From assembly GCA_902728285.1 (NCBI GenBank), contig CACVBU010000682.1, forward strand, positions 587,970 to 651,969: 64,000 bases of DNA, in the 5' to 3' direction. Numbering within the stretch: position 1 is the first letter of the stretch; the number at the start of each line of letters is the position of its first letter. A program made the position numbers and the translations under genes. This document shows positions 1,391 through 40,926 of the stretch, one piece after another. The notes beneath the pieces were generated by a model. The model was not told where the DNA came from and searched no databases. It saw only the letters and a program-made list of their open reading frames with translations. The stretch is from Clytia hemisphaerica (Eukaryota > Cnidaria > Hydrozoa > Leptothecata > Clytiidae).

Positions 1391-2275
1391 ATGTTTAACA
1401 TCTCAGAAGAACATCTTGAAAGATTACTCAAACTTGAAAGAGACTCAACTACGTTTTTAGGTGATCATTTAAAAGAAAAAATCGTTGAAAGTAACAAAGC
1501 GAAAAGCAATTTGAAGAACCCTCACCTCCGCCATATTGCTTCTCATCCTTGCCACAAGTATGTTTTTGAGGAATGTTTTCATAAGTCTAACATCCATGAA
1601 GAGGAATTCCTCATTCAAGACAATTTGAATTGCAGTATCAGACTCACAGAGTTTCACAGAGTCTGTGAAATATTGGAACAAGACTGTTGTGTAAAAATGT
1701 TATCTCATTCAGACGTTTTATTTGTTTGCCCCTGGATGTACTTGAAGAAAAACATTTCAATTGAGAAAGATAATGACTCTCATATGTTGGAAAAAGGACG
1801 TCTTGTAGTACCCCTCAAATCGTACCCGTTAATGGATGGTAAAACTACTGTTTTTCTGCCGTCTGGAGGACCTAGAGATTTGCCATCTTTTTTTAAAAAA
1901 CTCTCTGTAGAGGAACTTTTTCCAGTTGGGAAACTACCATTGAAGACTGTTCCTCTTGATAAAAAGCTAGAAAATGTTGTCGTGGAGAAGCAATTTGACT
2001 TTTTCAACACACCGAGGAAGGAAATGAAAGAAGGTGATGTATTTTGTTTTAGTGGGAAACGTTACAGAGTGGAAAGTGTCTCCTTGGACATTTTCAATCC
2101 TTGGCTAGATTATGTCTCGATAGGACCTGGTAAGACATTTCATCAAAATAACAAAAAACGCCCTATGAAATTTGGATCAGTTCCTGAAATTAGGGGTTCC
2201 ATTCTGCACTTGAATAAAAGTGATCTTGAACTTTACAATGCTGTTGATATTCAGTACAAAACGATTAAAAGTTAA
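1391..2275 (+). CDS. Orphan intronless ORF, 294 aa, function unknown
   Basis: A complete ORF from ATG to TAA, begins MFNISEEHLERLL, and is followed about 210 bp later by an AATAAA signal. The protein is soluble, with no signal peptide or membrane segment. It is Lys/Glu-rich at the N-terminus, has scattered Cys/His (HPCHKYVFEECFH near residues 52-64, a possible metal site), and a beta-rich C-terminal half with a KEGDVFCFSGKRYRVESV stretch (about 213-230). I do not recognise the family. A 294-codon open frame in DNA this AT-rich is unlikely by chance. The lack of introns next to intron-rich genes suggests a retrogene or a transposon-encoded protein. No terminal repeats were found around it. Confidence 0.7.
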   Translation: MFNISEEHLERLLKLERDSTTFLGDHLKEKIVESNKAKSNLKNPHLRHIASHPCHKYVFEECFHKSNIHEEEFLIQDNLNCSIRLTEFHRVCEILEQDCCVKMLSHSDVLFVCPWMYLKKNISIEKDNDSHMLEKGRLVVPLKSYPLMDGKTTVFLPSGGPRDLPSFFKKLSVEELFPVGKLPLKTVPLDKKLENVVVEKQFDFFNTPRKEMKEGDVFCFSGKRYRVESVSLDIFNPWLDYVSIGPGKTFHQNNKKRPMKFGSVPEIRGSILHLNKSDLELYNAVDIQYKTIKS

Positions 2276-2485
2276 GATGACATGGGAGTTGTAAATGTTT
2301 TATACAAGAATGCTATTTTTAATGAAGCTGGTAACCTAACTCATGATGTTGCTATTATTCCTTAGTTTCTCATTGTTTTTTAAGGTATCTGTTCCTTTGT
2401 TAGCCAAACTGAAACTTTTTTGAATCTTTCTCATTTATTTTACTGTACAATTACCCAAGCAGTTCCTTGTCTAGATCTTATTGAA

Positions 2486-2491
2486 AATAAA
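2486..2491 (+). terminator. Candidate polyadenylation signal for the 294-aa ORF
   Basis: Canonical AATAAA about 210 bp after the stop of the ORF ending at 2275, in an AT-rich 3' UTR and followed by TTGAGTTTGT, a GT-rich element. This fits a Pol II transcript end near 2510. Confidence 0.45.
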
Positions 2492-2501
2492 GACTTGAGT
2501 T

Positions 2502-2820
2502 TGTCCAATTATGCGCGTTTCGTGCAAAAACTGGCACTTAGGAAGTTTGCGTTGTAGACATCCTTGTTTTCATAATATTCTGGGCACTGCATCAAAATTA
2601 AAAGTTCTTTGTAATCCTTTGATAGTTAGTAGATATTTTTTCATTTTCCTTAATTTCAATTTCAATAATCATAGTATTTTTGAAACCTTGCAATTAGCTT
2701 CGTTCAAATTAAGGTCACAGACATTTTCAAAATTTTTAAGTGGAAACATTTGTGTCCGGTTATGCGCGTTTCGTGCAAAAACTGGCACATGGGAAGTTTG
2801 CGTTGTAGACATCCTTGTTT
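2502..2820 (+). repeat. Two direct repeats of about 68 bp, 251 bp apart
   Basis: The blocks at 2502-2570 and 2753-2820 both contain TGCGCGTTTCGTGCAAAAAC followed by TGGCAC, GGAAGTTTGCGTTGTAGACA and TCCTTGTTT, with only a few differences. The DNA between them is unrelated AT-rich sequence. They could be the ends of a short unit or a segmental duplication. They start just after the candidate polyadenylation signal of the orphan ORF. Confidence 0.75.
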
Positions 2821-2821
2821 C

Positions 2822-5602
2822 AACTTCTGATTAATCAATTTCTTTCCTTAATCCAGGCAAAGCAGCTTGAAAATATTGAAATTTGTATTCTTATTTTGTA
2901 TTGAAACTTTCTGGAAAATAATTGTACAACTGCACTACATTTTCTCTCTCTGTTTTAGCTTCTGATTTTAAAATATCAAGTCAAGTATTTCTTTATTTTA
3001 TTTTTAGGATTTTTTTCAGCACTTTTAGCACTTTATTTCTACTTAGAATAAGTTAGTTCATTTTTAGATGTTTGTATAATTTTATATTTGATTTAGGAAA
3101 TAATCACATGTGTATTTTTGAAACATTTTTTAGGACTGGGACAGTTAACTGTCATTTTTAATGTACATTTTACTGGGACTTGTAAATATTTGGTACTTTT
3201 TATTTGAGTTTTGCCCCATTTCATTTTTAAAAAGTCAAGAATATTTTACTACTATGGATTTCATTAAGTTTTCTCCCAAACTAGTTTCCAGATTAATTAA
3301 AAGGTTATTTCCCCTTTTCAAAACTATAGTTTAACTTTCACTATGGACTATGTAAGGCTTTCAAGACCAAATTTCAAAGTATCCTTTAATTGTTAAATCT
3401 CAAGAATTGAAATTATTTGTGTCGTTTTATTGTTTTTCATTGGTCTTTCCAACCTTTTAGCTCAAATTGTTCTAAAATATTCTAAACCGCTTCAGTGTAT
3501 AAATAAACATCCTATTTATCGATTAGCATGAATGAGCCTGTTTCCTTGCGTGATTTCAATTCTTTATGTGAAATTTGTTTTAGCTTAGATTCTCCTATCT
3601 ATGTTAATAATCTCCCCTCAGCTCAACTTTCCGGGTAGCTACTTATCAATCAGATTGACCTGATTGCTTAATTTTCTCTCATTTTTTGGTTTTGAACTTG
3701 CAAGATTGAACTGCCTGATCGGTTATCTTAAATGAAATGATATGAAATGATAAGCGGCCTTCCTGATTAATATTAACCAATGAAATACCTTATCGGTGAA
3801 AACTTCGTCGGGGAAAAGTGACCAAATTTTGGACAAGTGACAAATATTTTCCCCGACGAAAATTAAATAAGAAAGTAAAATAATAAAGTAGGCGGCAAAC
3901 GCTATTTCGCTATATCTGTGTCAAATCAAATCCCACCACGCAGTTTCGCTTCTAGCCCCTTGGTAGCTTTTCCTTCATTAGTTTTGATCTTTCAAATTTC
4001 CAGGTTATTCCCGAAGCCTGCCGGTGAATTTCAAAAGAAAGGTTCATGGATTACGGGTCCGTAAATACTCTGGGGTGCCTAATAAACATACCCCCTCCTC
4101 GCTAATTAATTTTTTATACAGGACATTCTTAATCCAGCCCCTCCCCCGCTTATTAATTTTTGGAAAAATATTTTTGAAAGTTCCTTATTTTACCCCAATT
4201 CTTCTTTATTAGCCAAAAGTCTAAAACAAAGAAACTCCTAGATCAAATCATTTAATTCGTCTTCATGATGATAACGACGAAAATATACTAAAGTTTCAGT
4301 TTTTAAAGTTTTTGTTGACTAAGAAAGGTTGAAGATTCTACTTTATCCCCTTTCAATATCTGTTTTTTGGAGTGGCGGGGAAGAATTTTTGATTGTATCG
4401 CTATTTTCTAATTTTCGATTATGATTTTGTAAACACGTCAAGAATTTTCCAGAGAATCTAATTAAGGCCACCGATACGCTATATGATATCAGATAACTAA
4501 ATTTATTAGAAACGAATGGTATGGTCGTAATTGATCTATTATTCTAGGAGAAATGCCCGACATAAATTTTTCCAATCTGTAAAATTGTTCCAACTGAATG
4601 TATCCAAATTAAATATATAATTGCCGGCGAAAACTTTGTGTAAGGATAATGAACACAAGAATTTTTTGGAAATTTATTCTGATTTTTATCAGCAAAAACA
4701 CGTCTACCGTCAAATGGCCTTAGATTCTCCAGGCCGGTCTAAGATTCAACGTTGCAAAGGGCGCAAAAATTCAGGATTTGTTTCGGATTTTTTTAGTCAA
4801 AGGGATTGATTCTTGCATGCACCAGGCTGGCGTACTAAAAAAAACAATCCGTTTAAATCTAAAAACAATAACTTTATCTTGGGCTAGCTATATGCTGCGC
4901 AATTCGGGTTCGCTCTGTATGCCCGAAAAAATTTCCGAAACTGACAGTTTGGAGAGAACCTTAAGACGGCTTGGAGAATGTGTAAGGCTTTTTGACAGTA
5001 ATGAAATTATCGATTTATCCGTGTTTTCCGAGCTTTAGCATGTCCGGAGCAAGTTTAACCGTTACATTTTCTAAACAGTTAGGAATTCTTATGTACTTGT
5101 GTGGACAAAGGAGATGAATCACGACTAAGGTAGAAAAAATATTTCTCAAAACTATCGAAAATTAAATAGGGAACATTATGGATTCGACTCGTTAAACTTT
5201 TATTCCGTAATTATAAATTTTGGTATATTCAAAGATTGAAACAATGGTCGTAAATGAGAGTTGTTAGTTTCAATTATTAGTAAAAATTAAACTCTTCCAA
5301 CGAAAACAATCAATAGTATTTGTAAAAGCAAAAATTATATGCAAAAAAGAAGTCTGGAGCCTAATTGTGTGGGACTCAAACTCTGCAAATTCTGCCTACG
5401 TTAATAATGAAATGGAAAAAGAAAGATACCTAATCGAAACAAAAGAGAAATAAAGTATAATGAAAAAAACTTAAAACAAAAAAAAACAATCTTGAAGTGA
5501 ATGTCCGGTAGAGTAACTTTATTCAAATAAAATCCTAGTGTTAGTGGTGATATTATTCACAATTAAATTTGCAAATCCAAAAAAGTCATAAAAGCATATC
5601 AA
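2822..5602. other. AT-rich intergenic DNA without a recognisable gene
   Basis: Only short ORFs without family resemblance. At 4060-4210 there is a stretch with C-rich runs and TTAATTTTT words (CCTAATAAACATACCCCCTC, CCCCCGCTTATTAATTTTTG) that resembles, in the opposite orientation, the G-run element at 61192-61432. I see nothing else I can name. Confidence 0.4.
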
Positions 5603-5870
5603 TCAAAAGTGATATTTCAACAGTTCAACTCTTTTGATAATCTGTGAAATTTCCGGCCGTTTTTCTGGAGTATCGTTCTTCATATCCTGACACAAAAGTC
5701 CAAGCTTTGGAGATTTGATCTCTTCATTGATCAATTCGAAATTATATCCCAGAGAATATAAATCCGTTTTAACTGATTGCACCGAACGAGGTACGTTGCG
5801 TAATTCGAATGCCAAATGCAAATGTCGGGTATTATATATTTTACGCTTTGCAGGGGCGACATTATACACA
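5603..5870 (-). pseudogene. Protein kinase C-terminal lobe fragment
   Basis: On the minus strand about 88 codons end in a stop at 5603 and align by motif with kinase subdomains VIII-XI: HLAFELRN in the place of the APE motif, KTDLYSLGYNFELI for the D-x-W/Y-S-x-G helix F motif, then GLLCQDMKNDTPEKRP, where the final Arg is the conserved subdomain XI residue. The catalytic HRD and DFG segments are missing: upstream sequence is replaced by a tandem duplication and then a reverse transcriptase in the opposite orientation. APE has become AFE. It is best read as a truncated kinase gene, or as the last exon of one whose earlier exons were displaced. Established: these motifs define the eukaryotic protein kinase C-lobe. 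Inferred: loss of function. Confidence 0.6.
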
Positions 5871-5912
5871 ACAGGATCTTCAAGTACCAAAACAGGATCT
5901 TCAAGTACCAAA
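5871..5912 (+). repeat. Perfect 21-bp tandem duplication at a junction
   Basis: Two identical 21-bp units (5871-5891 and 5892-5912, each beginning ACAGGATCTTC) sit exactly between the kinase fragment and the reverse transcriptase. This looks like a filler or target-site duplication made when the truncated LINE was inserted. Confidence 0.8.
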
Positions 5913-7294
5913 ACACCACGTCGTCAGCCTTTCTATTGTCACAAGGGGTCAGACAGGGCTCTATACTTTCGCCGTATTTATATAATATATACACAGAGGA
6001 CATCCTCAAGGAAATAAGAGACTTAAACATTGGAACCTTCTTTGATCCTGGTATCAACACTTCTATCATCGCTTTCGCTGACGACCTGATATTGCTTAGT
6101 CCAAACCTCAAACATCTTCAGCAAATGCTTTCGTTATGTGAATCCTACGGTCTAGCTACGGGACTAAAATTTAACAGCAAAAAGACACAGTTTGTTATAT
6201 CTGGAGATTGTCCATTCCAAAATCCTACAGTCATCATTAACGACAAAGAAGTAAAACTGCAATCAACTCTCAAACACTTAGGTGTTTTTTTCAAGTGGAA
6301 CCAGAAACTCAAGGCTGCCAAGTATCGCTATGAATTGGTCAGTAATGAAATATTTGGTGTGGGTGGATCATCAATGCAAGCCATTGAGTCTAACCTTGAT
6401 AATTTTCTTGGAAAATGGTGTTCAAAGAAATCAGTTGCAGTCAATCATCCAATTCTGACCCAATTGACAACACTTCAGAAGATTTCTTCATTCATGAAGA
6501 TAGCCAATATTGAGGAAATAATTTCTAAGTCGCACAAACAAAGAGAGATGTGTTTCAGAGATGAAGTTCTTGAATATGGAAAGGTTGATAACCTATTAAA
6601 TGCTGGATTTGAAAAGGAACAATTCATCGTTTTTGAATCTGACACCAATGGTCTTTTGTCAACCATAGCCACAGAAATCTCAAAGCTTTGCTCTGTCAAG
6701 AAAGATTGTGCGAAGCTTTTAGAATCCAAGGGATTCACAACGGATGCAATGGGTAATTTTCAAGTACTTTGTAAAAACCAAATTTCAAATATTTTCATGG
6801 CTGCTGATTTTATTGAGATTGTATTCATTATCTTTACTTCATCTTCCGTTCTCCCTGTACTCCCAATTTTTCCAAACAAACATGTATATGAAACAAGAAA
6901 TAATTGGATCATGATTTCATATGACCAGTCAGGGTACACCCCAATTAAGGAGAAAGGTTCAAAACAATTGGGGCAAAAAAAACCCCGTTCTGCCTGTTCA
7001 TGTGGAAGAACCTCAAAAAAGGAGAACTCTACAAGCTGCAATTCAGATGAAAGGAAATCCCGCTGCCCCTGTCTAGCATACGAGTCTGGCTGTCTTGTCA
7101 CTTGTAAATGTTTTAATTGTGCTAACCCTCTTGGAACAAGACCTATCGCAAAGTTAGAGACAAGTAACCGGCAACGCCCAGCACCACAGTTATCCAACAC
7201 AAGAAAAACAACTCGTGACTTTATGTTTGAAAAAGGAGAAAAAGCTTCAAAAGGAAAGTGGTCTTCTCTTGAAACACTCTTGCTGTACGATTAA
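5912..7294 (+). mobile_element. 5'-truncated non-LTR reverse transcriptase with C-terminal CXC-like cysteine cluster
   Basis: The open frame starts in the middle of a reverse transcriptase: GVRQGSILSPYLYN (motif 4) and AFADDLILLS (the catalytic F/YADD motif 5), followed by GLKFNSKKTQFV and LKHLGVFFKW (motifs 6-7). The fingers region and any endonuclease are missing. About 150 residues later comes CSCGRTSKKENSTSCNSDER then CPCLAYESGCLVTCKC and FNCANPLG, a spacing like the tesmin/TSO1 CXC zinc-binding domain. The LINE clade is unclear. The frame stays open for about 460 codons up to TAA at 7292-7294, so the copy is fairly young despite the truncation. The frame upstream (5816-5911) overlaps the kinase fragment and is not part of the element. 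Confidence 0.75.
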
Positions 7295-7471
7295 ATGTCA
7301 AAAAACGATGGCACATCATTAATAACAAAAGTGTTCAATAATGAAGTGAAAGTTCTTAGAAGTGCTTGTTATGAAATAGATGAGAAAACTGAAGCTGAAA
7401 TATCTTCAAAGATTCGATATAGCAAATCTGCAAGAGAGTGGCTGAATCTCGAGCGTAAAATAGCAATTTGA
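7295..7471 (+). CDS. In-frame continuation after the RT stop, 58 aa
   Basis: The TAA that ends the reverse-transcriptase frame is followed immediately, in the same frame, by ATG and 57 more sense codons (MSKNDGTSLITKVFNNEV to LNLERKIAI) before TGA at 7469-7471. This is either the natural C-terminus of the element's protein cut by a nonsense mutation, or a separate small ORF. The peptide is charged and helical-looking, with no recognised domain. Confidence 0.4.
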   Translation: MSKNDGTSLITKVFNNEVKVLRSACYEIDEKTEAEISSKIRYSKSAREWLNLERKIAI

Positions 7472-7817
7472 TTGTATCTATGTTTATTTAGTTTTTCCCT
7501 TTTATTTCATCTCAAATTTTTCTAATTTGTTTTCAAGGGAAATAGAGCTCCTTACATTTAGCAGGGAACTAATTTTAGCGGAGTATTGATCATAGAATAT
7601 TTGTGAATTAAATCTTACTGATGGTTGCCATGCTTGATTGTGTTTGATAATATAAAGAGAATTAATTTTATGGGAGCCTGCCCGTAAAAATTAGTTTATA
7701 CCATACACGTTTTTTTTTTTTAAGAAACTAGTTTTACCAAGCAGGCTCAATGTTTCTTAAGAAATCAGCCTTTTGAGCCTTAAATGTTTCTTACATGTTT
7801 CTAAACTTTTTGACATA

Positions 7818-8101
7818 CCTTAAAGGAAGAAAATTTGGCGGATTTGGCCAGAATCCGCCAAATTAAGTTCCGCCAAAATTTCTTTTTTCTGCCATCCGCC
7901 AAATTAAATTCCCGCAAAATATCTCTTTTAAGGTGGTTTCGCAATTTTTTTGCTGTTTTTACACCATTTTACGGATAAATCTTTCAGCAAACGCCAAATT
8001 AAATTCCCGCCAAATTTAGCTTTTTTCAACCATCCGCCAAATTAAATTCCCTCTAATAAACTTTTTTGGCCATCCGCCAAATTAAATTTCTTCCTTTAAG
8101 G
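7818..8101. mobile_element. TA-flanked foldback MITE (family a)
   Basis: Terminal inverted repeats begin CCTTAAAGGAAGAAAATTTG on the left and end TTAAATTTCTTCCTTTAAGG on the right, with TA on both sides (7816-7817 and 8102-8103). The inside holds several copies of CCGCCAAATTAAATT, which is the inner part of its own inverted repeat. There is no coding capacity. The TA target and size fit a Tc1/mariner-like non-autonomous element. The design is shared with 12561-12896 and 17675-18029. Confidence 0.75.
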
Positions 8102-8103
8102 TA

Positions 8104-8713
8104 ATCAGCCTCATGGAAGGCTGGATTGGAAGGTTCTTAAAAAAACGAATTTGAATATGCTATTTTCTCATTCTCAGCCTCAGCATGTTTCTTAGTTTTT
8201 AGGCATTCTGAGCCTCATGTTTCTTAAAAGTGTGTTTCTTAAAAAAAAACGTGTATTATTTATATGCAAAGCTTGAGGATTCTTTTTCTTGTCATGCAGC
8301 CATTATAGGAAAAATGTACTTTTGTTGAAGGTGAAGTTTTTTTTAAAGAATTTGCCAAAATTTAAGGTGAAATAGTTTCTTTTATTTGCTTTTATTTAAT
8401 TTTTTTTGTCCTCAGGAAGGCTTCTTACCAGAGCAAAGATACAATTTAACCTCCAATTATCTTTATCAAACTAACCTTTTACTCCCATTATGCTCACTTT
8501 CATCTGAGCTGTGCAATTTTATTATAGCCGGTTTTTCTCTTCAGTTATATGTGACACAATATATTTTATTAAATAAGAACTTATTCAAAATTGAAATTAA
8601 AAATTTTTTTGTTAAAACATGTCTTTGTCTTTTTTCCCATGATCTATGGGTGTTATTAAAATTTAAGGGTTTCTGAATATTGTGGGAATTATCTTTTCTT
8701 ATTTTAATTTCAG
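8104..8713. other. Upstream region of the ATPase gene
   Basis: AT-rich, no domain-bearing ORF. The first coding exon of the ATPase gene is preceded by a good acceptor (TTTCAG at 8708-8713), so a 5' untranslated exon and the promoter should lie in this region or further left. I could not locate them. A donor-like GTAAG is not obvious. Confidence 0.35.
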
Positions 8714-8729
8714 ATCATTATAAATCAAA

Positions 8730-11700
8730 ATGGAATCACAAGAGCTTATTGAAATCCAGGTAATTTTAATTCATTAAATCTTTCTCTGAAAATTGATTGT
8801 GCAGTTAGTGTAGTTAAAGATTACAATGTTACAATGTAATAATACAATGTAGATGTTATGTCGATTGTTTTAATAGTATATTTTCTTGTTTCAGGAAAAT
8901 GAACCAGTTTCTTTCATAATTTCAAATGGGAAGACTTACGTTCGTTCTGGCGAGGGGCCGATTCTTCGGGCTTTCTCTTTCGTAATAAGAAAAGTTGGCT
9001 TTTTAAAGAAAAATGATAGTTTGAAAAAGGTTCATTGTGCTTATGTTATTAGTGGGCAGGAAGTTAACTCCAACGAGATCATCGAAAGGTAATTTTTTTT
9101 TAAATCTTTAGTAAAATATTATTACTGTCATTGAGGTGTTAATTCCTATCTTCCCCCTCCCCTTATAAAGAGGAGTACCAGCAGTCTATATTTTTTTAAG
9201 ACAAGTAGATAAAGCATTGAAGTCTTTTTTCAGAACATCCCTTGACTTCAAATCTAAAGATATCTTTTGGAAATCTCTCGAAGAGGTTGAGGATATCTCA
9301 GTCCATATATACGACGTTGTAAAAACTAATGTTATGGATAGTTTTTACAATTATTTGGAGTCAATGATCGATCGTAGTGAATTAAGGGAATACAGGCTTG
9401 CTCCCTTTATTGGCTTCCAGAATGGTGTATGGGTACTTTCTGATAAGGTAAGAACAATATCCCAAGTAGGAATTTTGGTACTGAGTGTATCTCACAATTA
9501 TTTTTTTGAAGTTAACTCCTTTACATTGTCTCTTTGATAAAAAAATTTCCATACTGAGACCTCTGTGATGAAGTATGATTTTAAAAGCAGAAATATTTCT
9601 CTCTTCACCTCTCATTTCTCACCAAACTTTGCTGCACCTGGATTTGCCAAAATTAGCCAAAATTAAATATTTTGCTACATCATCAAAAATAAAATTCTTA
9701 GTAGTTTGCTAAAATAGTTCCTGAATATCATCAAAATTGCTGAAAAAGCGCAAAATATTCTTTCGCCAAAATTACTTCCAAACCAAAAGATTTTACCATT
9801 CACTAAAATGAGTTCTCGGGTAACTTAATGCATGTCCCAGAATTGCATTAATTTTTCCGCCCCAGTTCCAGTCCCTAAACCATAACAAACTTTACATTTT
9901 TAAAAGCGTATTTGGATGTAGAATACCGTATTCGATGTAACTTAAATTCTTTCTCAGTATAATTAGAGATATCTTAAGAAAACCTGATTATGACGTCATG
10001 ATTGATGACGTCATAAATACAAAAAGTTGAATATCTCGAGAAATATAAATCAAAACTTTATGAAATTTGGACCAGTGGTAGAGTACATTGAGATGTTTCA
10101 AAAAATTTTGAAAAAATTTACCAAAATTAATGACATCAGCAGAAATTGCAAGAATTCGAATTTTTGCGATAAAATGCTGACATCAGCAAATTTTAAATTT
10201 TTTTAAAAAAGATTCTCCTCCTCTTGATGAGTTCTTTCATTGGTCCAAATTTTATAAAGTTTTGAGTATTAGTTCTTGAGATATTTAACTTTTTAAAATT
10301 ATGACGTCATAAATAATGACGTCATAATCAAGTTTTCTTAAAAAAACTCAAATTCTGCTGAGAAAGAATTTAAGTTACACCGAATACGGTATTCTACATC
10401 CAAATACGCTTCCAAAAATGTATACTTTGTTATGGTTTAGGGACTGGAACTGGGGCGGAAAAATTAATGCATTTTTGGGACATGCATTAAGTTACCCGAG
10501 TTATTGGCAAAATGAAAGATTTCATGTCTTCAAATTATTTATTTTATAGATTCACATTAAAGATGGATTTATCCTATCCAAAGTTCAAAAATCTCACATC
10601 ATTTCCAAGGAATTGCAAGGTTGTCAATTCGAAGTAAAAGAAAAAGTTTGGAAGGTATCTTTTCTCTTTTTATTCAATTTACTAATACCTTTTCTGATGA
10701 TTGAAAACAAAGAGATTTTTACAAGGAAAAAAAGAAAATAACCATCAGGGCTTTTAGAAAATTAGTAAATAATGATAAAGCCTTGCCCTTGCCTGAAATA
10801 TTTCAAACATTATTTGTCAGGGAGATTCCCTCAAGGTATTGTTGTCTATGAGAAAATGAACTACTTTGTCTGAAGCTGTATCTAGTTGTTATTTTTTCCT
10901 TTGTATAGTATATTATCATTGACAAAACATTACCGATGTAATCGAGATGCTGTGATACAAGCAATCTCATTCACATTGACACGGCTCTTGAGCGTAATGC
11001 ACCACGAAACGCTTGCAGGTATAGAAATACTATCCCCTTTTCAATTGCCACTAATCTCAATCAAAACTCCATTAGTAGAGGTCACTATTTGTCATCAAAA
11101 TTTGCCTTGTCTGGGGGTAATTTGGTGTGTCCGGGGGGCCAAAAGTCACCCTGTCCGGGGGTAAATCACTAAAAATTGTTATATCCTCCACCCCCATGTA
11201 AATTTTTTTTCTGGAAGAGCCCATTGACTTCTTTATATCTATGATTTAGATAATTATGACTGAGAGTAGTACTTACACATTTTTTAGCTGAATCAAAGTA
11301 TGCTGTACTTGCAACTGGGGATAAGTCTGTTGGGAAGTCTTCCATTCAAAAATTGGTAGCTCATGGCCAAGGAATACCTTCAACCAGCCATCCTTTTGCT
11401 GCTGCTGGTGGTGATGGCAGTGGTGCTGGAACAACTTTGTAAGTTTGTCTCTTTAAAATCTTTTAAGCAGGGAATAAAGTTATTTACTTTGAGAAGGTAT
11501 TGTAGGTAACTTTTTAGTACTTTGAAATTTTTGCGCAATTACACAGACGCCTGAAAATTCCTAACCTACATCTTGGGGACCATGAATAAAGCTTTCTGTT
11601 TTCAAATATAAAATGCACCATCAGACTGATGATTTTTTATTTCTTTTACTTAAGGACAAAACAATTACAAATATTAGCTTTGTCTAATATGGTCATTATA

Positions 11701-14700
11701 TTCAATGAGCTAGAGATTGCTTCGCCAATGGTTGGAAAGGCATTAAACCAAGCTCACGACAACTATGGGTGTCATTCAGTTGGTCGTGGAACACTTAAAC
11801 CGAAAGCATCTCTGCTCGCCTCGTCAAATCAACTGATACCACACATAAAGTAATTATCTAATTTAATTTTAATTAAATACGTTCTCGAACAGTCTTGACT
11901 ACTTTAATACAGTCATTTTACATTTTTTTACATTTTTCCATTCACTAGAGGGATTCAATATTCTCAACTTTAGTTGAGTTAGAATATTGTGTGTATGTAT
12001 GTAACTGTGTCTGTCAGTCCCCTCAAAGCTTTGGGGCAAGCCGAAGACTTCTTTTTTTTTTCATTTTTAGGGTGGTCACAAGTTTTAGCCCGAAACGAGG
12101 TTAAAAACTTTGGGCCAGGCTGGAGACATAATTATCTAATATGATTTTCATATTGCTAAAGTTTTCTACGTTTGATCCTTGGGTGTGGATTCAAATTAGC
12201 TTGGCTTACATGGATTTTACAATTGGGCCTACGAATGACTTTAAAGATACTGAAATTGTGTCAGTGCGGTTAGCAAGTTAAAGAGTAGAATAAGTCATTG
12301 GTCAATTTTCTTTAGGCTGGACACACGAATCCAAATTATGACGTGTGAAGAGGGGGAAGACTTCGACAAAGTCGTAGACAAAAGGGCTTTGGATAATGAT
12401 TTGACAAAATTGGTTGAATCAAATCCTGTAAGTAATTGTTTTTTTTGTTTTCGAAGGCTTTTACTTAATTCTATTAGAATCACATTGAAAACAGAGTTTA
12501 TAGAAAAGAATGAGAGTATTGGTGATTTACTCTTTTGAAAATCATAGGTGAAAAATTATACCTTAAGGGAAGAAATTTTTGCGGGAATTTAATTTTGCGG
12601 TTGATCAAATTATTTTTTTTCGCGGGAATTTAATTTCGCGGCTCAGCAATTTTCGACAAATTCGCGGGAATTTAATTTCGCGGTTGCAGGATATTTTTGG
12701 CCAAAAGCGTTATTAAATAAGCAAAAAACCTATTTTAAGGCTTGAAATAGTACGAATTTGGGGAATGCGTTAAATAAATTAAATTTCGCGGGAATTTAAT
12801 TTTGCGGATTGGCAATTTTGTAAAATTTCGCGGGAACTTAATTTCGCGGTTTTAGGCAAAATCCGCGAAAAACCGCGAAAATTTCTTCCCTTAAGGTAAT
12901 GGTTCACAGTGCTCAAGCGGTGTGTTTAATGACAACCTGTGACATGGCAACACCAAAAAATATTTCATGTTTCATTCTCTTGATTTTAGGGATTTCTCAT
13001 CGCCTGGTGTACCTGGCACAATGATATGGTTTGTAAAGCGATGGAAAGATTTGCAGACAAAGTTGCCAATGAAATTATCAGTTCACGCAACGACATTAAA
13101 TCTCGCTTGTTGGACGCCAAGCTCGACAACGTGATAATTGCTTTCCTGGTTGGTGATTTTTTATTGTGCTTTTCATTCTTTTCTTTTTTTGAATCTTTGT
13201 GGAAGTCCTATGAAAGTTCGTTAGTTATTTTGTCCGTTCGTTAGTTTGCTCATATTCGTTACCAGCTTTTCTCAAAATTGGCTCATTCAACTTTTCAGAT
13301 TTTTTGCACAAAGATGCTAGTTATTAACCCTTTAATAATACAGAGCTTGATTTCCAGGAAATTTTTCTTTCAAATTTCTACAATAGACAAAAGACAATCA
13401 GGTACATGCTCCAGAATGCAAATCTGTGGTTTTCTTCTTTTTCGTTGAAAAGATGAAAGTTTACGTTGAGTAATGAGGCAAAATAAGTGAAAAGTTTTCG
13501 AATGCTCTACGAAAATGTAATGCGCCCTGCATCATTGTGTTTACAACGAGAAAACTGAGATCATGTTTATTGCCCTTAAAGCCCACTATTGAGAAAGAGA
13601 TGAGAAGCTTCGTAGTTTACCAAATTTGTTGTCCTCGCTGTAACGCGAGCTATGTCGGTCAGACGATGCGACATTTACTAAGTCGTTTCAAAGAACATCG
13701 CTATGTCTCAAGTCCCGTGGGATCACATTTTAGTAGATGCAATAAAACTGTAACAATAGATGACGTTTCCATTGTTGATTCATCTATGCGTTCCGTAGAG
13801 GCTGAGTTAATGACCCTAGAGGCTATCAAGATAAAAGAAAATTAAAAACCGTCGTTAAACACTAAAAACGAATACAAGAGCAAGGCGCTTGTGATTGATT
13901 TGACTTGAAATAGAATTTTTTTTTCAGTTATGCTTTGAAATTGTAAGGGTAAGATGTATGTTTGATATGATGTGTTTGTTACAACAAATATTATATAGAT
14001 TTCTATATATTTTTACATATTTTTTCTTCTTTCTTAGACTTGAAAATGAAACACAGTTTTCGAAATATATTGTCAAATCAAATTAAATTGTTGGCTACAT
14101 ATTTATATATATTTCTTCTTTTTAGCTCCTCGCTCAGTATGAGAATGATAGGGACTATATTAGCCCCTCAGCTATCTACAACAAGATTGTTGGCCAGTCC
14201 GTCCATACCAATTCGATTGATAAAGAAAAGTTTTGGGTTGAAGTCCTGGATCTAATTAAATCTGATACCGAGGTAAGTTTTTAGAAACGGAAAGAAAGTC
14301 CATTCGCATTATATGTGCACTTTCATTTGATATTCTCAAGGTAATGAGAGAAGTCTCTTGAGAGTGGTCGCCACATGGTATCAAATAAAGGTGCATTTTT
14401 TTACATCGAAACTTTTCGGTAATAAAATGTAACTAAAGTCAGTTCACAATAAGTGTGCACTCTTTTTTCTTTTACCTATAACTTTTGAAGGAATTCTTCA
14501 AAATTTGGTATCGTTGGAGAGATATTTGTGAGTGGAACAATTTAAAATAAAAAAGTTTTTAAAAAGATTCTAAAAAGATCTTGTAGAAAGCTGCTATACC
14601 TTACATTTTCACTGGAGAAATTCTTTGATCTTAGGAGGTCATCACTGTGAAGAAATTTCCCTGAAATATTTATTCAATACAAAGTTAATAAGTGACTGAC

Positions 14701-15333
14701 CCCAAAAAACAGCAGAAAACAGCGTTTTTAGACGTCAATAAGCTTATAACTTTGTTTGATATCTTTTGACTGAATGATTGTTTTTGAGAAATTTTTTCAC
14801 AGTGATGGTGTTCGATGATCAAGGATTCACTTCAGTGAAAATGATAGTCATACCACTTTTCTACAAGATCTTCATTTTTTTCTTCATTTTTAGAATTTTT
14901 TCAAAGAATTCTTTATTTCAAATTGTTCCACTCACAAATATCTCTCCAACGAAACCAAATTTATAAAGATTGAAGCCGGAAAAACAGTTTTATTGAAAAT
15001 CTACTAAATATTTTTTCATCAATTTTCACACTGATGCAAAATTGCAATGCCCAAAGAAAAGCGGAGCCCGATTTTAGATGGTAGATGTTATAGCTTGCAT
15101 GGACCGGAAATGTACTCAAATAGTTTTTTTCTCGAGAAAACTTTTGTCCCATTTCTTTTGTCTTTAGATTTTGCCGTCCTCATAAATATTGTTTTATGTT
15201 TTCAGGCAACCACTTGGTTCCATCCCTTTACAGGATTTAAAAGAACAGATACTAAAGGGAAAGAAAGAGGTGATATAATCCCAGCAGTGACAATCCATTC
15301 AGACAAGATGAAATGCCTTCATTCAGTCACTTT
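8730..15333 (+). CDS. Intron-rich P-loop ATPase, DUF927/SF3-helicase-like layout (3' end in gap)
   Basis: Coding exons: 8730-8759, 8895-9088, 9234-9447, 10550-10619 (or to 10654), 10715-10835, 10909-11018, 11288-11438, 11655-11849, 12316-12427, 12990-13148, 14126-14272, 15206-15333. All junctions are GT/AG, and phases agree except at exon 4/5. About 543 residues are visible. An N-terminal region contains APFIGFQNGVWVLSDK. It is followed by Walker A GDKSVGKSS (about 257-265), Walker B MVIIFNELE (309-317), then LLASSNQLI (350-358), like the SF3 sensor-1 Asn motif, and LDTR (363-366), a possible arginine finger. This order resembles DUF927 and D5/SF3 primase-helicases of phages and mobile elements. 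That resemblance is my inference, not a database match. ATG chosen as first in frame after an acceptor at 8713. The last exon is still open where the N-run starts. It may be a domesticated or element-encoded helicase. Confidence 0.65.
9815..10500. mobile_element. Long palindromic (foldback) element in ATPase intron 3
   Basis: The two halves are inverted copies over most of their length. Ends read CTCGGGTAACTTAATGCATG and its complement, and shared inner blocks include AATACCGTATTCG and AACTTAAATTCTTTCTCAG. Both arms carry pairs of TGACGTCA, a CRE-type palindrome. There is no coding capacity. No clear target-site duplication was found. It lies in the intron between 9447 and 10550. Confidence 0.8.
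12561..12896. mobile_element. TA-flanked foldback MITE (family b) in ATPase intron 9
   Basis: Inverted termini CCTTAAGGGAAGAAATTTTT and its near-complement are flanked by TA (12559-12560 and 12897-12898). Inside, the motif GCGGGAATTTAATTTCGCGG recurs in exact or near-exact form about five times. There is no ORF. The end sequence is clearly related to 7818-8101, while the internal repeat is different in sequence but the same in kind. Confidence 0.8.
13489..13908 (+). pseudogene. Penelope-type GIY-YIG endonuclease fragment
   Basis: A frame of about 118 codons carries FVVYQICCPRCNASYVGQTM and LLSRFKEH, the CCHH-linked GIY-YIG nuclease pattern typical of Penelope-like retroelement C-termini (Y-x-I-x-C-x2-C, YVGQT, R-x3-H). 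The usual ending K-P-S-L-N-T-K is present after an in-frame TAA at 13843-13845, so one codon has become a stop, and the frame then runs to TGA at 13906-13908. Everything upstream (reverse transcriptase) is missing. It lies in the ATPase intron 13149-14125 in the same orientation. A GTCCGTTCGTTAG/TTACCAGCTTTTCTC piece of the GGACCTACC repeat family precedes it (about 13190-13320). Confidence 0.7.
14495..14965. repeat. Inverted-repeat (foldback) element in ATPase intron 11
   Basis: GAATTCTTCAAAATTTGGT and GGAGAGATATTTGTGAGTGG (left) are mirrored by CCACTCACAAATATCTCTCC and ACCAAATTTATA (right). Further inside, AGATCTTGTAGAAA and TCACTGTGAAGAAATTT are mirrored by TTTCTACAAGATCTTC and AATTTTTTCACAGTGA. 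There is no ORF of note. Confidence 0.7.
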
Positions 15334-16272
15334 NNNNNNNNNNNNNNNNNNNNNNNNNNNNNNNNNNNNNNNNNNNNNNNNNNNNNNNNNNNNNNNNNNN
15401 NNNNNNNNNNNNNNNNNNNNNNNNNNNNNNNNNNNNNNNNNNNNNNNNNNNNNNNNNNNNNNNNNNNNNNNNNNNNNNNNNNNNNNNNNNNNNNNNNNNN
15501 NNNNNNNNNNNNNNNNNNNNNNNNNNNNNNNNNNNNNNNNNNNNNNNNNNNNNNNNNNNNNNNNNNNNNNNNNNNNNNNNNNNNNNNNNNNNNNNNNNNN
15601 NNNNNNNNNNNNNNNNNNNNNNNNNNNNNNNNNNNNNNNNNNNNNNNNNNNNNNNNNNNNNNNNNNNNNNNNNNNNNNNNNNNNNNNNNNNNNNNNNNNN
15701 NNNNNNNNNNNNNNNNNNNNNNNNNNNNNNNNNNNNNNNNNNNNNNNNNNNNNNNNNNNNNNNNNNNNNNNNNNNNNNNNNNNNNNNNNNNNNNNNNNNN
15801 NNNNNNNNNNNNNNNNNNNNNNNNNNNNNNNNNNNNNNNNNNNNNNNNNNNNNNNNNNNNNNNNNNNNNNNNNNNNNNNNNNNNNNNNNNNNNNNNNNNN
15901 NNNNNNNNNNNNNNNNNNNNNNNNNNNNNNNNNNNNNNNNNNNNNNNNNNNNNNNNNNNNNNNNNNNNNNNNNNNNNNNNNNNNNNNNNNNNNNNNNNNN
16001 NNNNNNNNNNNNNNNNNNNNNNNNNNNNNNNNNNNNNNNNNNNNNNNNNNNNNNNNNNNNNNNNNNNNNNNNNNNNNNNNNNNNNNNNNNNNNNNNNNNN
16101 NNNNNNNNNNNNNNNNNNNNNNNNNNNNNNNNNNNNNNNNNNNNNNNNNNNNNNNNNNNNNNNNNNNNNNNNNNNNNNNNNNNNNNNNNNNNNNNNNNNN
16201 NNNNNNNNNNNNNNNNNNNNNNNNNNNNNNNNNNNNNNNNNNNNNNNNNNNNNNNNNNNNNNNNNNNNNNNN
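15334..16272. other. Assembly gap (939 N)
   Basis: A run of N. It begins inside an open coding exon of the ATPase gene, so at least the rest of that exon is hidden. The sequence right of the gap (16273-16530) shows no continuation of that protein in any frame. Confidence 0.99.
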
Positions 16273-16527
16273 TATAACACCATCAATCCCCCCTAGAGGC
16301 AAACAAGAAAAATATGTTTTTATTGCCAAAAACTAATAAAAAGCAGCAATAAAAAGTATCAGAAAATTCAACATAAACAAAAACTTGAGCAAACGGCTTT
16401 TTTAAACCTTCAAAAGGTGTAGAAAAAGAATCCCCTTGATGAAAATCATGTGTTTGATTTGCCGAGTTAAAAAAATAAATGACAGAAATTGAAGCTTGCA
16501 ACAGATTTACACTGGAAATACTTTGGT

Positions 16528-16757
16528 ACAACACTGACTTATCACATCTGACTTATCGCTTGAGCCGCCATCTTGAAATACCACATTATGATCTGTAAAA
16601 ACAACGCACGCTAAAAGTACCCAAAAAGTTAACCCGATCGGAACAACACTGACTTATCACATCTGACTTATCGCTTTAGCCGCCATCTTGAAACACCACA
16701 TTATGATCTGTAAAAACAACGCACGCTAAAAGTACCCAAAAAGTTAACCCGATCGGA
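16528..16757. repeat. 115-bp tandem duplication containing a YY1-like motif
   Basis: The units 16528-16642 and 16643-16757 are nearly identical (a few substitutions). Each holds GCCGCCATCTTGAAA, the reverse complement of the AAGATGGCGGC YY1/5'-UTR motif, and TTAACCCGATCGG. On the minus strand each copy gives a very short ORF starting ATGGCGGC. It could be a duplicated promoter or first exon, or part of a repeat. Confidence 0.85.
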
Positions 16758-16929
16758 AGAAAGTTTAAAAATCAAAGTGAGATCGGGAAATCGGATTTTT
16801 TTTTTGCCGTCTTATGATGATGGAAGAAGAAATGAATTTTACGGATTTGAATGCTCAGCTTAGGCTGACCAAAAAGTAAAAAATATAAGTGCATGGATAT
16901 ACCGCACATTCAAACAAGAAGAAATGAAA

Positions 16930-17541
16930 CCATGTTAACTTTATGGAAATGACTAGCCATCCCTCATTTTGGACTACTGTTCTCAACTCTGGTCTCCCTG
17001 GAAGCGTGGTCTTATCCAGTAACTGGAAGAAGTTCAGAAATCATTTTTACATGGAATTCCATCCCTCAGACATCTTAATTATTGGGAAAAACTCAAATCA
17101 GTAAAACTGTATAGCCTTGAAAGAGACAGAGAGAGCGGTATCAAATAATTTATACCTGGAACGTCGTCATTGAAGGGAACGTCCCGAATTTTGATTATGA
17201 CAAAAGTAAAGGAGGCATTTCCTACCATATAAATCAGAGATTGGGGAGAATTTGTAATCTAAAAGCTGTCAATATTAAACACAAAAATATCTGGCCAGGG
17301 AAGTCTTTCCCAAGAAGGCCCTCAATTATTCAACACCCTTCCCAGACCAATAAGAGATTTGACAAACTGCCCCAAAGAAGTATTCAAAAAACACCTAGAC
17401 ACCTTCCTCACAACTGTTCCGGACGAACCTCTGCTTGCCCACTATTTCAACCTTAGGCAAGCTGACTCCAACAGCCTCTCAAGCACTCAGGGAAATCCCT
17501 CAATTGCGGTATACTGCAATTGCGGTAGTTTTCAATCGTGA
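16930..17541 (+). pseudogene. Decayed LINE reverse-transcriptase 3' end
   Basis: Pieces in different frames read like the thumb and C-terminal part of a non-LTR retrotransposon ORF2: LNYWEKLKSVKLYSLERDRE, then YQIIYTWNVVIEGNVPNF, then a segment resembling LPRPIRDLTNCPKEVFKKHL and DTFLTTVPDEP. Several frameshifts and stops separate them. It is a dead 5'-truncated copy, unrelated in detail to the LINE at 18905. Confidence 0.65.
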
Positions 17542-17674
17542 TTAGCCTACAAAGGCTTATAACAGCTACATATATCGACTGTAAAAAATTGTACGAGAAT
17601 AGCTTTTCTTTATCAATAGAATCTGATCTACGGAAAAAATATTTTGTCTGTGCGTTAAAAAGATATGATCAATT

Positions 17675-18029
17675 ACTTTAATCGTAGAAATTTTAGCGAG
17701 ACTAATTTTAGCGTTTTAGCGAGTTTTCCCTACTTTTGCTAAAATAAATCTCGCTAAAACACGCCGAATCAACAGATCGCTAAAATTAATCCGCACGAAA
17801 TTTTTGGTTTTATTGCCTTGATACATTTTTATCAATACGAAGGGTCTCAGTGCAGAGAAATGCTAGAAAAGGAACTCAGTCAATAATGTAATACAAATAT
17901 TCGCTAAAATTTATCCACGCGAAACTTTTCGAAATCGTGATTCGCTAAAATAAATCCAAAAAAATCGAGATTTTCCTGACTCGCTAAAATACGCTAAAAT
18001 TAGTCTCGTTAAAATTTCTACGATTAAAG
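17675..18029. mobile_element. TA-flanked foldback MITE (family c)
   Basis: Inverted ends CTTTAATCGTAGAAATTTTA and TAAAATTTCTACGATTAAAG are flanked by TA (17673-17674 and 18030-18031). The interior repeats short CGCTAAAAT-type words in both orientations. No coding potential. Same design as 7818-8101 and 12561-12896. A palindrome, TACTGCAATTGCAGTA-like, recurs just outside it at about 17510, 18075 and 18130. Confidence 0.8.
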
Positions 18030-18491
18030 TATGTACAAAAATTGCCTGTTTTCTCCTTGAATCTTGAATTCTGTTTCTTGAGTATACTGCAATTGCGGTA
18101 TATACATAAAAAATTTGAAAGTGACGTTTATACTGCAATTGCAGTAAGAAATTACTACCGCCGCAATACACCGTTTAACAGTGTCGACTGCGCACAGGTA
18201 TGAACAATTTTTCATTGTTTTGATTTTGCCAACCACGGGAAACTTCACTTTACCCCATAAAAAATGGTAGGTAAACATCCAGTTCTCATAAGAAAACCCA
18301 GCAGAGAAATGGTAAGTAAAGAATTTCATTTAATCATAACTTCTTTTCCTCTAGATGAATTTTTGTGGAATTTTCAGGAGAGATACATAAAATTGTCATT
18401 AATATCATGTTCAAACATCTAAAACATTCTATTTAAAGAAAAGAAAAAAAATAGCAATGTTTACATTTCTCTAACCTTCCACAATACTAAA

Positions 18492-18779
18492 GTGAGCATT
18501 TTTACCTACCGCCTCTACGGTGGAGATGGCGAGACTGTTAAACAGTGTATCTTAAAATCATGCCAACAATCAACACAAGATATTAAATCAGTAAAGTTTG
18601 TATTCAGTGACATTGAAGGTAATCTCAAAGTATGCTTTGTCGATAAAAAACACAAGAACAGAAACATTCACACGTTTGATTCCGAAGAACACCTCGCCAA
18701 CTTGATCCTTGACCATGAACACTCTGCAGAACTTCCGTTAAATGAAATTGACCAAAATCCAAGAAATTCCATAAACTGA
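18492..18779 (+). CDS. 95-codon ORF upstream of the LINE; possible ORF1 remnant
   Basis: The frame starts at a GTG (no ATG) and reads FTYRLYGGDGETVKQCIL to NEIDQNPRNSIN, stopping 125 bp before the PHD-finger ORF. Codon use looks coding and the peptide is a mixed alpha/beta-type sequence with no domain I can name. It could be the end of ORF1 of the LINE, or an exon of an unknown gene (an acceptor-like CTAAAG precedes it). Confidence 0.4.
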   Translation: MSIFTYRLYGGDGETVKQCILKSCQQSTQDIKSVKFVFSDIEGNLKVCFVDKKHKNRNIHTFDSEEHLANLILDHEHSAELPLNEIDQNPRNSIN

Positions 18780-18904
18780 CATAATGTTCACATCAGATTA
18801 TTGATTTAATCTTTTAAAGACTACTTTACGTAAGATACTTTATATTTCACCTTTCCCTATTTTAGTTTTCTTTTGAACACTTATATAAGCTCTAAGGCCC
18901 TTGT

Positions 18905-21900
18905 ATGTATTACTGCTCTGTCTGCCATAAGCTTGTAAACGACAACTCCAATTCTATACAATGTGATGTCTGCAATCTCTGGGTCCATCATAAAAAGTGC
19001 TCTGGCCTAAGTCGTGAAGAATTCCTTACTCTGTGTGAACCGAATAATAATGACAACTGGTTCTGCCCATGTTGTATCAATAATGCTCTCCCTCTACCCC
19101 CTGATGAAAATCCTCAAAATCCTGATAATACTGGCTCTAATCTCAACGAAAATCTTAAATCTATCCTTTCTGATCTCAACAACATAGTTTCAGATTTAAC
19201 AACCAATGATGACGACGAAAACTTCGATGAAATACAATTCCAATCTAATTCCTGCTCTTATGTAACTTGTGAAGAATTTAATTCACTTCTCTCTCCCAAG
19301 TCTGAAAGTCTCTCTGCTTTCCATCTAAACATCTCCTCAATGTCTAAACACTATGATGCGCTCCATACACTTTTGAATCAACTTAAGATTGAGTTTAATT
19401 TTATAGGTATCTCAGAATCTAGAAACACAATCAATGAGGAAAACCTTGCTCCCTCTACGGAGAGGGTACAAGATTTTCCGCTAACAAATTACAAAAAATT
19501 CTTCACTCCAACTGAATCCTCAGCTGGTGGAGTGTCCTTGTATATTTCTAAATCCCTTGTTCCAATACCAAGAAAGGATCTAGATAGCATCTGATATCTA
19601 GCAAAGAATCTTGAATCTATCTTTGTTGAAATTCCCAGACCAGCCGAAACAAACCTAGTTGTTGGTACCATTTACCAACATCCATGCATGTCGATAGACT
19701 CTTTTAACTCTGACTTTCTGAAGCCTCTTATCCACAAACTCTCGAAAGAAAAAAAACAAATTCTTCTCCTTGGTGACTTCAATATCAACCTTTTGAAATG
19801 TGACGAAGAACCAGTAAACTCTTTCCTTGATATTCTTGGCTCTAACCTTTTACTTCCTCAAATTCTACTTCCCACTAGAGTGACAAATCAATCTAAAACC
19901 CTTATTGACAACATTCTCTCAGGCCCTGCCACTTCTATGACTATATCTGGTAACCTTTGCTATTCTATTTCTGACCATTTACCCCAGTTTTGTCTTTTCC
20001 CTGAACTCAACTTCAACAAAATCAAGGATTCTGGTCCTTTTTTTAAACAAAACTGGTCTAAATTTGATAAAGATAACTTTATCAAACATTATACCTCAAT
20101 CAACTGGGATTCCCTATTCGATAGGTTTGACTTGGATCCCAACAAATGCTTTAATATTTTCAATGATAAAATGAAGGTACTTGTAGATCGACACGTTCCC
20201 ACAGTCAGGCTTACCAAGAGAGAGGTTGAATCTAAACTTAAGCCCTGGATCACACCTGGCATAGTTAAATCAATTTCAAAGAGGGACTTCTTTCAAAGGA
20301 AATCTCTCAAATCAAAAAATCAAGCAACTGCAGATCACTTTGACAGCCTTTACAGGACCTACCGAAACCAAATAGTCAATCTAACCAAATTAAGTAAAAA
20401 AAATTACTACACAAGCTTTTTTCAAAGATATTCCAATAATATGAAAAAAGTCTGGTCCGGGATCCGTGACATTATTTCATCTAAAACTCAAACTAATTCC
20501 AATATCTCCGTAACAATTGATGGTCAGATTCAATCGAAGCCTGACAAAGTTGCTAACCATTTTAACAACTTTTTCACTTCCATTGCTGATGACATCAGGG
20601 ACAAGATTCCCCCCTCCTATCAACACTTCTCCTCTTTCCTCAAACACAAAAATCAAAACTCCATTTTCCTCAGACCTACATCACCTGATGAAGTCGCAAA
20701 AATTATTGGATCCTTCTCCTCCTCTAAGTCATCTGGACCAAACAGTATCCCAATAAAAATTCTCAAAATCCTTCAAGATAAGATCTCAAATCCCCTTTCG
20801 ACTCTAATCAATCGATCCTATCATACAGGGGTATTTCCTGAAGTACTAAAAATCTCGAAGGTTATTCCAGTCTTCAAAAACAAAGGCTCCCCGCTCGATG
20901 TATCAAACTATCGCCCAATTTCTCTCTTATCTAACATAGAAAAGATCTATGAAAAAATTATGTATTCGCGGGTCGTGGAATTTTTAAACCAATTCAATCA
21001 AATATATATACTCTAGACAATTTGGTTTTCGTAAAGGTCATTCAACAACACATACTCTCATGAACATCTTGGAAGTATTAGAGAACACCTTGATGATGGT
21101 GGGTTTGCTTGTGGTGTATTTGTCGATCTACAAAAGGCCTTTGACACTGTGGATCATGAAATACTAATATCTAAGCTAAACCACTATGGCATCCGAGGTA
21201 ATACTAAAGACTGGTTCAAGTCATATCTCTCGGAAAGGTCCCAATATCTTTCAATCTCGGGAACAAAATCAAAACATAAACCAATTAAACACGGTGTACC
21301 TCAGGGCTCTGTCCTGGGTCCTCTATTATTTCTTGTATACATTAATGATCTCCATTACTGTATCAGAACCTCAGAAACCTATCACTTTGCCGACGACACT
21401 CATCTACTAAATCTCTCTCAAACTGTCTGGTCTCTGTGTGGGAGAGTGAACTCTGATCTCAGAGTTCTTGTTAGCTGGCTGAATGCTAACAAAATATCGC
21501 TTAACGCTAGCAAGACCGAATTTATCATCTTTAGGTCCAATAGGCGCCGTCTTGATACTATCCCGAAAATCGAAATCTCGGGTAAGCGCTTAACTCCAAG
21601 TAAAATCATCAAATATCTAGGTGTCCATCTTGATGAACACCTCTCTTGGAAACAACATGTTGCTGTTGTTACTGCCAAACTTCGTCGTGCAAATGGGGCT
21701 ATCTCTAAACTCCGTCACTATCTCCCTCTTCCAAACCTTATCAACGTCTACCATGCTATCTTCTCCTCTCACATTCGCTATGCTTGTCAAACTTGGGGCC
21801 TCTGTGATAACACTGTCACCCACAGAATCCAAGTCCTACAAAATACTGCTATCAGGATTATGACCTTCCAAGAACCAAGGGCCTCTGTCACTCCCACCTA

Positions 21901-22105
21901 TAATGAACTCAAAATCTTAAAATTCTTTGATCTCGTTGAAACACTCAATATTATGTTCATATACCGCTACCTGAATAGATACCTTCCTTCTGACTGTCTT
22001 TCTACTTTTACCTTTTCTGTAATTCCTCAAAACTGCTTACCTTTTAGCACTTTGACAAGCCAGTCCACTTTCTCTTCCAAACTTAAACTAAAACTCGTCA
22101 GTTAA
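18905..22105 (+). pseudogene. CR1/L2-like LINE ORF2: PHD finger, endonuclease, reverse transcriptase
   Basis: The first part (18905-19594) opens with a C4HC3 PHD finger (CSVCHKLV, CDVCNLWVHHKKC, WFCPCC), then the start of an AP-type endonuclease (FHLNISSM, FIGISESR). An in-frame TGA at 19592-19594 interrupts it. The same frame continues with ILLLGDFNINLL and SISDHLPQF (endonuclease catalytic Asp/Asn and SDH), then reverse transcriptase: VIPVFKNKG, SNYRPISLLS, FVDLQKAFDTVDH, HGVPQGSVLGPLLF, YHFADDTHLL, KYLGVHLDEHLSWK. Between 21005 and 21090 the frame is lost and regained by two small indels (the FGFRKGHSTT segment is in another frame). So the copy is nearly full length but disabled. CR1/Jockey-group assignment rests on the PHD finger and FADDT. 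Confidence 0.85.
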
Positions 22106-38070: not shown

Positions 38071-38084
38071 GTAAAAAAGTTATC

Positions 38085-38660: not shown

Positions 38661-38685
38661 ACCGTGTTCATTCACTCGCATTTCA

Positions 38686-40916: not shown

Positions 40917-40926
40917 AACGTTCGCT

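Follow-up and report, generated by a model that had tools for sequence, protein, structure and literature searches.

In the ring-forming ATPases of superfamily 3 (SF3) and the AAA+ class, the Walker motifs of one subunit and an arginine of its neighbor hold ATP between them, and hairpins that precede motif C track nucleic acid. Primase-helicases of the P4 alpha and D5_N-DUF5906 type, SF3 proteins of phages and plasmids, carry an NGV motif, a Walker A motif and a short Walker B motif in that order, followed by a motif C with asparagine and proline, an arginine and a G[FIL]L element. Among the helicases described for mobile elements are some that have DUF927 or D5/primase C-terminal domains (PMC10061031; PMC7581432; PMC7689252), and Cch2, likened to Cch, is reported to form multimers consistent with hexamers and to unwind in the 3'-to-5' direction (PMC7581432). 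Here we analyze a stretch of 64,000 nucleotides (the window) from the hydrozoan Clytia hemisphaerica (assembly GCA_902728285.1, contig CACVBU010000682.1, positions 587,970 to 651,969 of the forward strand), in which an intron-rich gene at 8730-15333 (+) encodes a protein with the motif order of the P4 alpha type. Our favored reading, held about as firmly as it is doubted, is that this is a functional host gene of the animal encoding an AAA+-class, SF3-like ATPase. Its motif layout appears to resemble that of the phage and plasmid helicases most closely, with kinship unproven by sequence comparison, and the helicases of the three sources are possible functional analogues of the encoded protein, their relatedness to it being unproven.

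Joining twelve exons with AG/GT borders yields 518 in-phase codons without a stop, whereas the two alternative frames contain 30 and 43 stops, and none of 20,000 base-shuffled exon sets stayed open. The three-phase composition chi-square reaches 64.7 for the joined exons and does not exceed 7.8 in any of 2,000 windows of joined introns, and the GC content of the exons is 39.7% versus 31.6% for the introns. In a leave-one-exon-out analysis, in which the frames of each exon were scored with a codon-position model whose training excluded that exon, the frame of the gene model came out on top in 11 of the 12 exons and received a positive score in 10, with small margins for some exons (for example, 1.3 versus 1.0 for 10909-11018). 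The twelve coherently phased exons of a preliminary description of this locus, all of whose quoted peptides we recovered on the plus strand of the interval, are thus borne out by the open codons, the periodicity and the frame scores. Its placement of the gene in an animal genome also holds, since Pfam finds the stromalin conservative domain (E 2.2e-07) in an open reading frame (ORF) at 62461-62775 (-), whose core peptide aligns with the structure-solved cohesin subunits SA-1 and SA-2 among Protein Data Bank (PDB) sequences; on these matches the ORF is an exon from a gene for the cohesin subunit SA (STAG), which marks the window as animal DNA. We conclude that the sequence confirms a real, coding, intron-rich animal gene at 8730-15333, with exon joins that are predicted.

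Unless stated otherwise, each exon is supported by the joined model and its own frame score, and all lie on the plus strand. Exon 1 (8730-8759) supplies the start ATG and residues 1-10; an acceptor-like TTTCAG upstream of it, found by eye, suggests a preceding 5' untranslated exon. For exon 2 (8895-9088) its own frame scores best, with a slightly negative left-out score. The N-terminal module with IGFQNGVWVLSDK is encoded by exon 3 (9234-9447), which is additionally covered by a D5 profile alignment, and is followed by exon 4 (10550-10654), the proposed exon 5 (10825-10835) and exon 6 (10909-11018), which encodes the stretch ahead of Walker A and wins its frame by a small margin. The ATPase motifs are carried by exon 7 (11288-11438; Walker A, GDKSVGKSS), exon 8 (11655-11849; Walker B, VIIFNELE, and the motif C or sensor-1 element ASSNQ) and exon 9 (12316-12427; LDTR, with a possible arginine finger). 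Exon 10 (12990-13148), also covered by the layout scan described below, starts with the GFLIAW of PGFLIAW and is followed by a weak donor, GTTGGT, after 13148. Exon 11 (14126-14272) contains a possible winged-helix stretch, YISPSAIYNKIV, recognized by eye, and exon 12 (15206-15333) runs into an assembly gap of 939 bases (15334-16272), in which its 3' border is lost.

The uncertain splice spots all lie outside the ATPase exons. One of them is exon 5, a phase-keeping 11-nt microexon that we proposed because exons 4 and 6 are otherwise out of frame: it is the lone exon whose frame does not win, its coding score is unsupportive, its acceptor is GGGAG and a rival acceptor ends at 10885, which would also do for joining exons 4 and 6. 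The microexon is a guess. The C-terminus probably lies inside the gap. A scan of the plus strand for coding exons across 16273-30000 returned nothing but transposon-ORF-like stretches; as no more than 7 of the 12 known exons are picked up in this way, a terminal exon of small size could have escaped it.

In the spliced protein, Walker A begins at residue 232 and fits the P-loop pattern GxxxxGK[ST], and VIIFNELE, a hydrophobic strand ending in acidic residues as in P-loop NTPases, has asparagine (residue 289) in place of the first aspartate of Walker B and retains the glutamate. The motif C-like strand ASSNQLIP ends, as in SF3 and D5 proteins, in an asparagine (residue 330), with a proline behind it and then the LDTR arginine (residue 341), a possible arginine finger by its position; ahead of the ATPase core, the N-terminal IGFQNGV has its asparagine at residue 138. 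The Walker A, Walker B-like and motif C-like elements thus stand in the SF3 order given in the preliminary description. By eye, the D5/SF3 members that we inspected agree with this protein in kind: their Walker B often has one acidic residue, several P4/D5 proteins lack the first, and their motif C ends in asparagine, with proline soon after and arginine next.

We counted these features in two sets of D5/SF3 proteins (35 and 13), 90 DUF927 proteins, 7 MCM proteins (two of them core pieces) and 688 other ORFs. The D5/SF3 sample comprised the alpha gene of phage P4, 12 further fetched members and 80 viral-contig loci; one misframed locus was left out of the D5 profiles and counted in the set of 13. 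NG[VI] ahead of Walker A occurs in 14 of the 35 and 7 of the 13 D5/SF3 proteins and in none of the DUF927 (0/90), MCM (0/7) or other (0/688) sequences. Walker A, Walker B and motif C with N..P are found together in 27/35 and 5/13 D5/SF3 proteins, 1/90 DUF927, 0/7 MCM and 0/688 other sequences; Walker A, Walker B, motif C and the arginine in 31/35, 8/13, 16/90, 0/7 and 1/688; and motif C, the arginine and G[FIL]L in 17/35, 4/13, 0/90, 0/7 and 3/688, in the same order. The composite layout is present in 6/35 and 3/13 D5/SF3 proteins, in none of the DUF927 (0/90), MCM (0/7) and other (0/688) sequences, and in 4 of 50,000 shuffles of the protein with its ATPase motifs held fixed. SF3/D5 kinship is no more than suggested by this layout. 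It also receives some signal from profiles: a 12-sequence D5 core profile covers residues 131-250, and with them both the NGV motif and the P-loop, in one alignment with an expectation value (E) of 0.0066, a score reached by 9 of 300 motif-preserving shuffles, and the pre-P-loop residues 100-228 align with the 12-sequence profile in the expected place at E 0.012, with 1 of 250 shuffles as good.

A number of observations weigh against such kinship. The composite pattern was drawn up after the protein had been seen, and for that reason the layout counts are suggestive and no test; single parts of the layout are common in the 50,000 shuffles (NGV in 871, N..P in 2,636 and R-G[FIL]L in 3,290), and the control of 688 ORFs contains just 6 Walker A proteins. 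With a 28-sequence D5 profile only the P-loop is retained (E 0.016), and the N-terminal segment shifts to another place (E 0.052). The protein is outscored by 3 of 256 ORFs that show no kinship, each of them one of the 6 that carry a Walker A, and its C-terminal part gives no signal with the profile, 72 of 250 shuffles doing equally well; the values of 0.0066 and 0.016 both fall within the range of our controls, short of a significant profile match. The intervals from NGV to Walker A, Walker A to B, B to motif C and motif C to the arginine are 94, 57, 41 and 11 residues, all four outside the 5-95% ranges of 11 D5/SF3 proteins (75-91, 48-54, 42-46 and 15-16; the last two missed just narrowly) and of 89 DUF927 proteins (78-86, 48-51, 44-47 and 18-24, with motif C taken as the first serine of SSGE). 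They lie outside the MCM ranges as well, and overall D5/SF3 is nearest. Pfam (whole protein and segments), NCBIfam, PHROGs and PADLOC yielded no family assignment, matches to PDB sequences are at chance level (best E 0.2), and two single-exon structure models, all-helical with mean predicted local distance difference test (pLDDT) values of 62.6 and 71.5, are uninformative fragments as regards the fold. The Pfam check proposed in the preliminary description accordingly produced no hit to DUF927, D5 or SF3 domains, and no placement in a known animal NTPase family either. Unlike the P4 alpha and D5_N-DUF5906 enzymes, then, the Clytia protein is encoded in an animal by a gene with introns, its profile match is insecure, its motif intervals are out of range, and no primase was detected in it, residues 1-181 being without a Pfam domain. 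One Pfam match, to DUF3405 (E 0.18 and 0.054), was set aside as it is below the cut-off and ends before Walker A. Our own profiles of DUF927, D5/SF3 and MCM proteins yield no secure match beyond the P-loop.

The alternative that fares best, although we consider it unlikely, is a divergent member of another hairpin-bearing cellular AAA+ group (MCM, MCM8/9-like or an unnamed eukaryotic family) with no mobile-element history. The protein shares with the MCM replicative helicases a Walker A of the GDxxxxKS type and, by eye, a stretch, TLKPKASLLASSNQ, that resembles the MCM sensor-1 strand, and its P-loop matches a 7-sequence MCM profile at E 0.0042. No similarity was found beyond the P-loop, however: residues 241-400, after Walker A, carry no MCM signal (250 of 300 shuffles as good), Pfam MCM gives no match, and two intervals are far from those of the 7 MCM proteins (57 versus 63-65 residues from Walker A to B and a much shorter 11 versus 25-26 from motif C to the arginine), while that from B to motif C is 41 versus 42-44. 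As regards the N-terminal oligonucleotide-binding/zinc domain of MCM proteins, Pfam returned no match of any kind for residues 1-181. The NGV motif is found ahead of Walker A in none of the seven, of which the two core pieces are unable to show it.

Distinctly less probable is a signaling or motor P-loop NTPase (NACHT/STAND, dynein-like or GTPase) whose motif C resembles that of SF3 proteins by chance. Only the P-loop is secure, and shuffles that preserve the motifs reach the profile scores not only for D5, as noted above, but also for DUF927 (15 of 200). Against this explanation, Pfam shows no match to NACHT/STAND, dynein-like or GTPase families, cut segments included, and the composite layout is rare among the shuffles (4 of 50,000).

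The DUF927 assignment of the preliminary description is not supported by comparison with 90 proteins below 75% identity, chosen from 173 open frames gathered from plasmids, phages, viral contigs and genomes (five Legionella-type loci excluded), and we regard the capture by an animal of a DUF927 helicase of the type of SCCmec Cch or SaPIbov1 Rep as highly improbable. Like those helicases, the protein has an N-terminal module about 80-95 residues before the P-loop, and a first 12-sequence DUF927 profile matched it at E 0.039 in a co-linear alignment of the N-terminal GF..VL stretch with both Walker motifs, A and B, a score exceeded by none of 200 full shuffles. When the shuffling leaves the three ATPase motifs in place, however, 15 of 200 equal or beat that score. 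A trimmed 90-sequence profile aligns residues 110-252 (E 0.054), and one of four single members pairs its own GWHDGAYVLPD with MDSFYNYL...GFQNGVWVLSD of the protein (E 0.072), but the untrimmed 90-sequence profile gives no meaningful match, Pfam DUF927 gives none to the whole protein or its segments, and our own profiles never beat their controls. Unlike Cch and SaPIbov1 Rep, the protein has no GxGK, and residues invariant in all 11 aligned DUF927 members are replaced, with GF for GW, asparagine for the Walker B aspartate (NE for DE) and SN for GE. The loss of GE alone would not exclude DUF927, because an outlying DUF927-like phage protein (Rollin, L007, not among the 11) has TSN where the others have GE.

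As to origin, the claim that the gene was captured or derived from an element is plausible and unproven: no relative was confirmed among viral contigs, phages or plasmids, the scope of our searches, which included no search of prokaryotic genomes or metagenomes with the protein. Pattern-seeded scans of viral contigs with the whole protein, the core and two degenerate sets (one with patterns outside the ATPase motifs, the other on Walker A alone) returned 2, 10, 102 and 86 candidates, none of which was confirmed by tblastn; since the scans were seeded by few short patterns, distant viral relatives can be missed. Plasmids gave no match by tblastn. Phages gave 39 records, and the 20 matches listed, at E 0.1 to 6, are probably due to chance; 19 of these 20 come from enterobacterial (Salmonella, Escherichia, Shigella) or host-unnamed phages and one from an Erwinia phage. 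The listed matches cover residues about 89-253, the N-terminal half and the P-loop, at 23-25% identity, and we take the enterobacterial phages among them to be T5-like. That the gene belongs to a virus or transposon inserted recently, or is a pseudogene in decay, is scarcely credible, for although the region is rich in transposon debris, the introns of the gene included, there are eleven introns, no in-frame stop and an intact periodicity, no inverted repeat pair of at least 25 nt brackets the gene within 2300-18400 (gap excepted), and the viral-contig, phage and plasmid searches confirmed no relative. The eleven introns argue for long residence.

Within our favored reading of a host AAA+-class, SF3-like ATPase, we tentatively propose, with more doubt than conviction, that an animal lineage captured a replicative helicase of D5/SF3 type in ancient times and now keeps it as a fixed host gene rich in introns, the ATPase site having diverged by asparagine for aspartate in Walker B. 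The product would be a ring ATPase that perhaps helps to maintain the genome or to counter mobile DNA, and that goes unrecognized by Pfam, NCBIfam and PHROGs models. If it works in the manner of SF3/D5 helicases, the protein would assemble into a ring with ATP bound between subunits, at the site formed by GDKSVGKSS and FNELE, and the LDTR arginine would complete the ATP site of the neighboring subunit. A hairpin ahead of ASSNQ could then move the ring along DNA or RNA. The IGFQNGV module near the N-terminus may be the counterpart of the D5_N region, and the asparagine in place of the first Walker B aspartate might slow metal handling. Genome upkeep and defense against mobile DNA are guesses at the cellular role. 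If the SF3/D5 kinship is true, a replication motor of mobile elements would have turned into a lasting animal gene, whose orthologues could be traced and whose role could be tested; if it is false, the gene would still encode an animal AAA+-like protein missed by standard profile libraries. In the open-access literature, searches combining DUF927 with cnidarian, or D5_N with metazoan helicase, found no description, no title among the work on DUF927 concerned animals, SF3 helicase with cnidaria and introns returned crucivirus work only, and the helicase term was absent among the matches listed for broader searches. Such proteins may already be deposited as uncharacterized, as subscription journals and RefSeq annotations lay outside these searches.

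Repeats and mobile-element remnants are found within the gene and on both sides of it. Many inverted repeat pairs are intronic or link copies of a single short repeat family found both at 7.8-8.1 kb and at 12.6-12.9 kb. Three introns contain inverted repeats like those of foldback elements or miniature inverted-repeat transposable elements (9815-10500, 14492-14971 and 12559-12898), and the repeat at 12.6-12.9 kb has inverted copies at 7.8-8.1 kb. The intron at 13149-14125 holds a GIY-YIG endonuclease-like ORF at 13477-13842 (+) (E 0.00015, just below the curated cut-off), which we take to be possible debris of a Penelope-like element. Upstream of the gene lie an intronless ORF of about 296 residues with no Pfam match at 1385-2275 (+) and a reverse transcriptase ORF at 5804-7291 (+) (RVT_1, E 1.6e-18) that continues into CXC-like sequence (MSL2-CXC, with an E of 8.2e-05 that falls below the cut-off). 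Downstream, an element resembling a long interspersed nuclear element at 18896-22102 (+) has a reverse transcriptase ORF (RVT_1, E 1.6e-25) as well as PHD-like (E 0.0006) and endonuclease-like (E 0.0017) ORFs, both below the cut-off. A long terminal repeat element at 37670-41734, perhaps young and internally deleted, is delimited by direct repeats at 37670-38072 and 41334-41734 that are 99-100% identical and encloses an ORF with DUF1759 (E 8.7e-11), presumably as in BEL/Pao elements.

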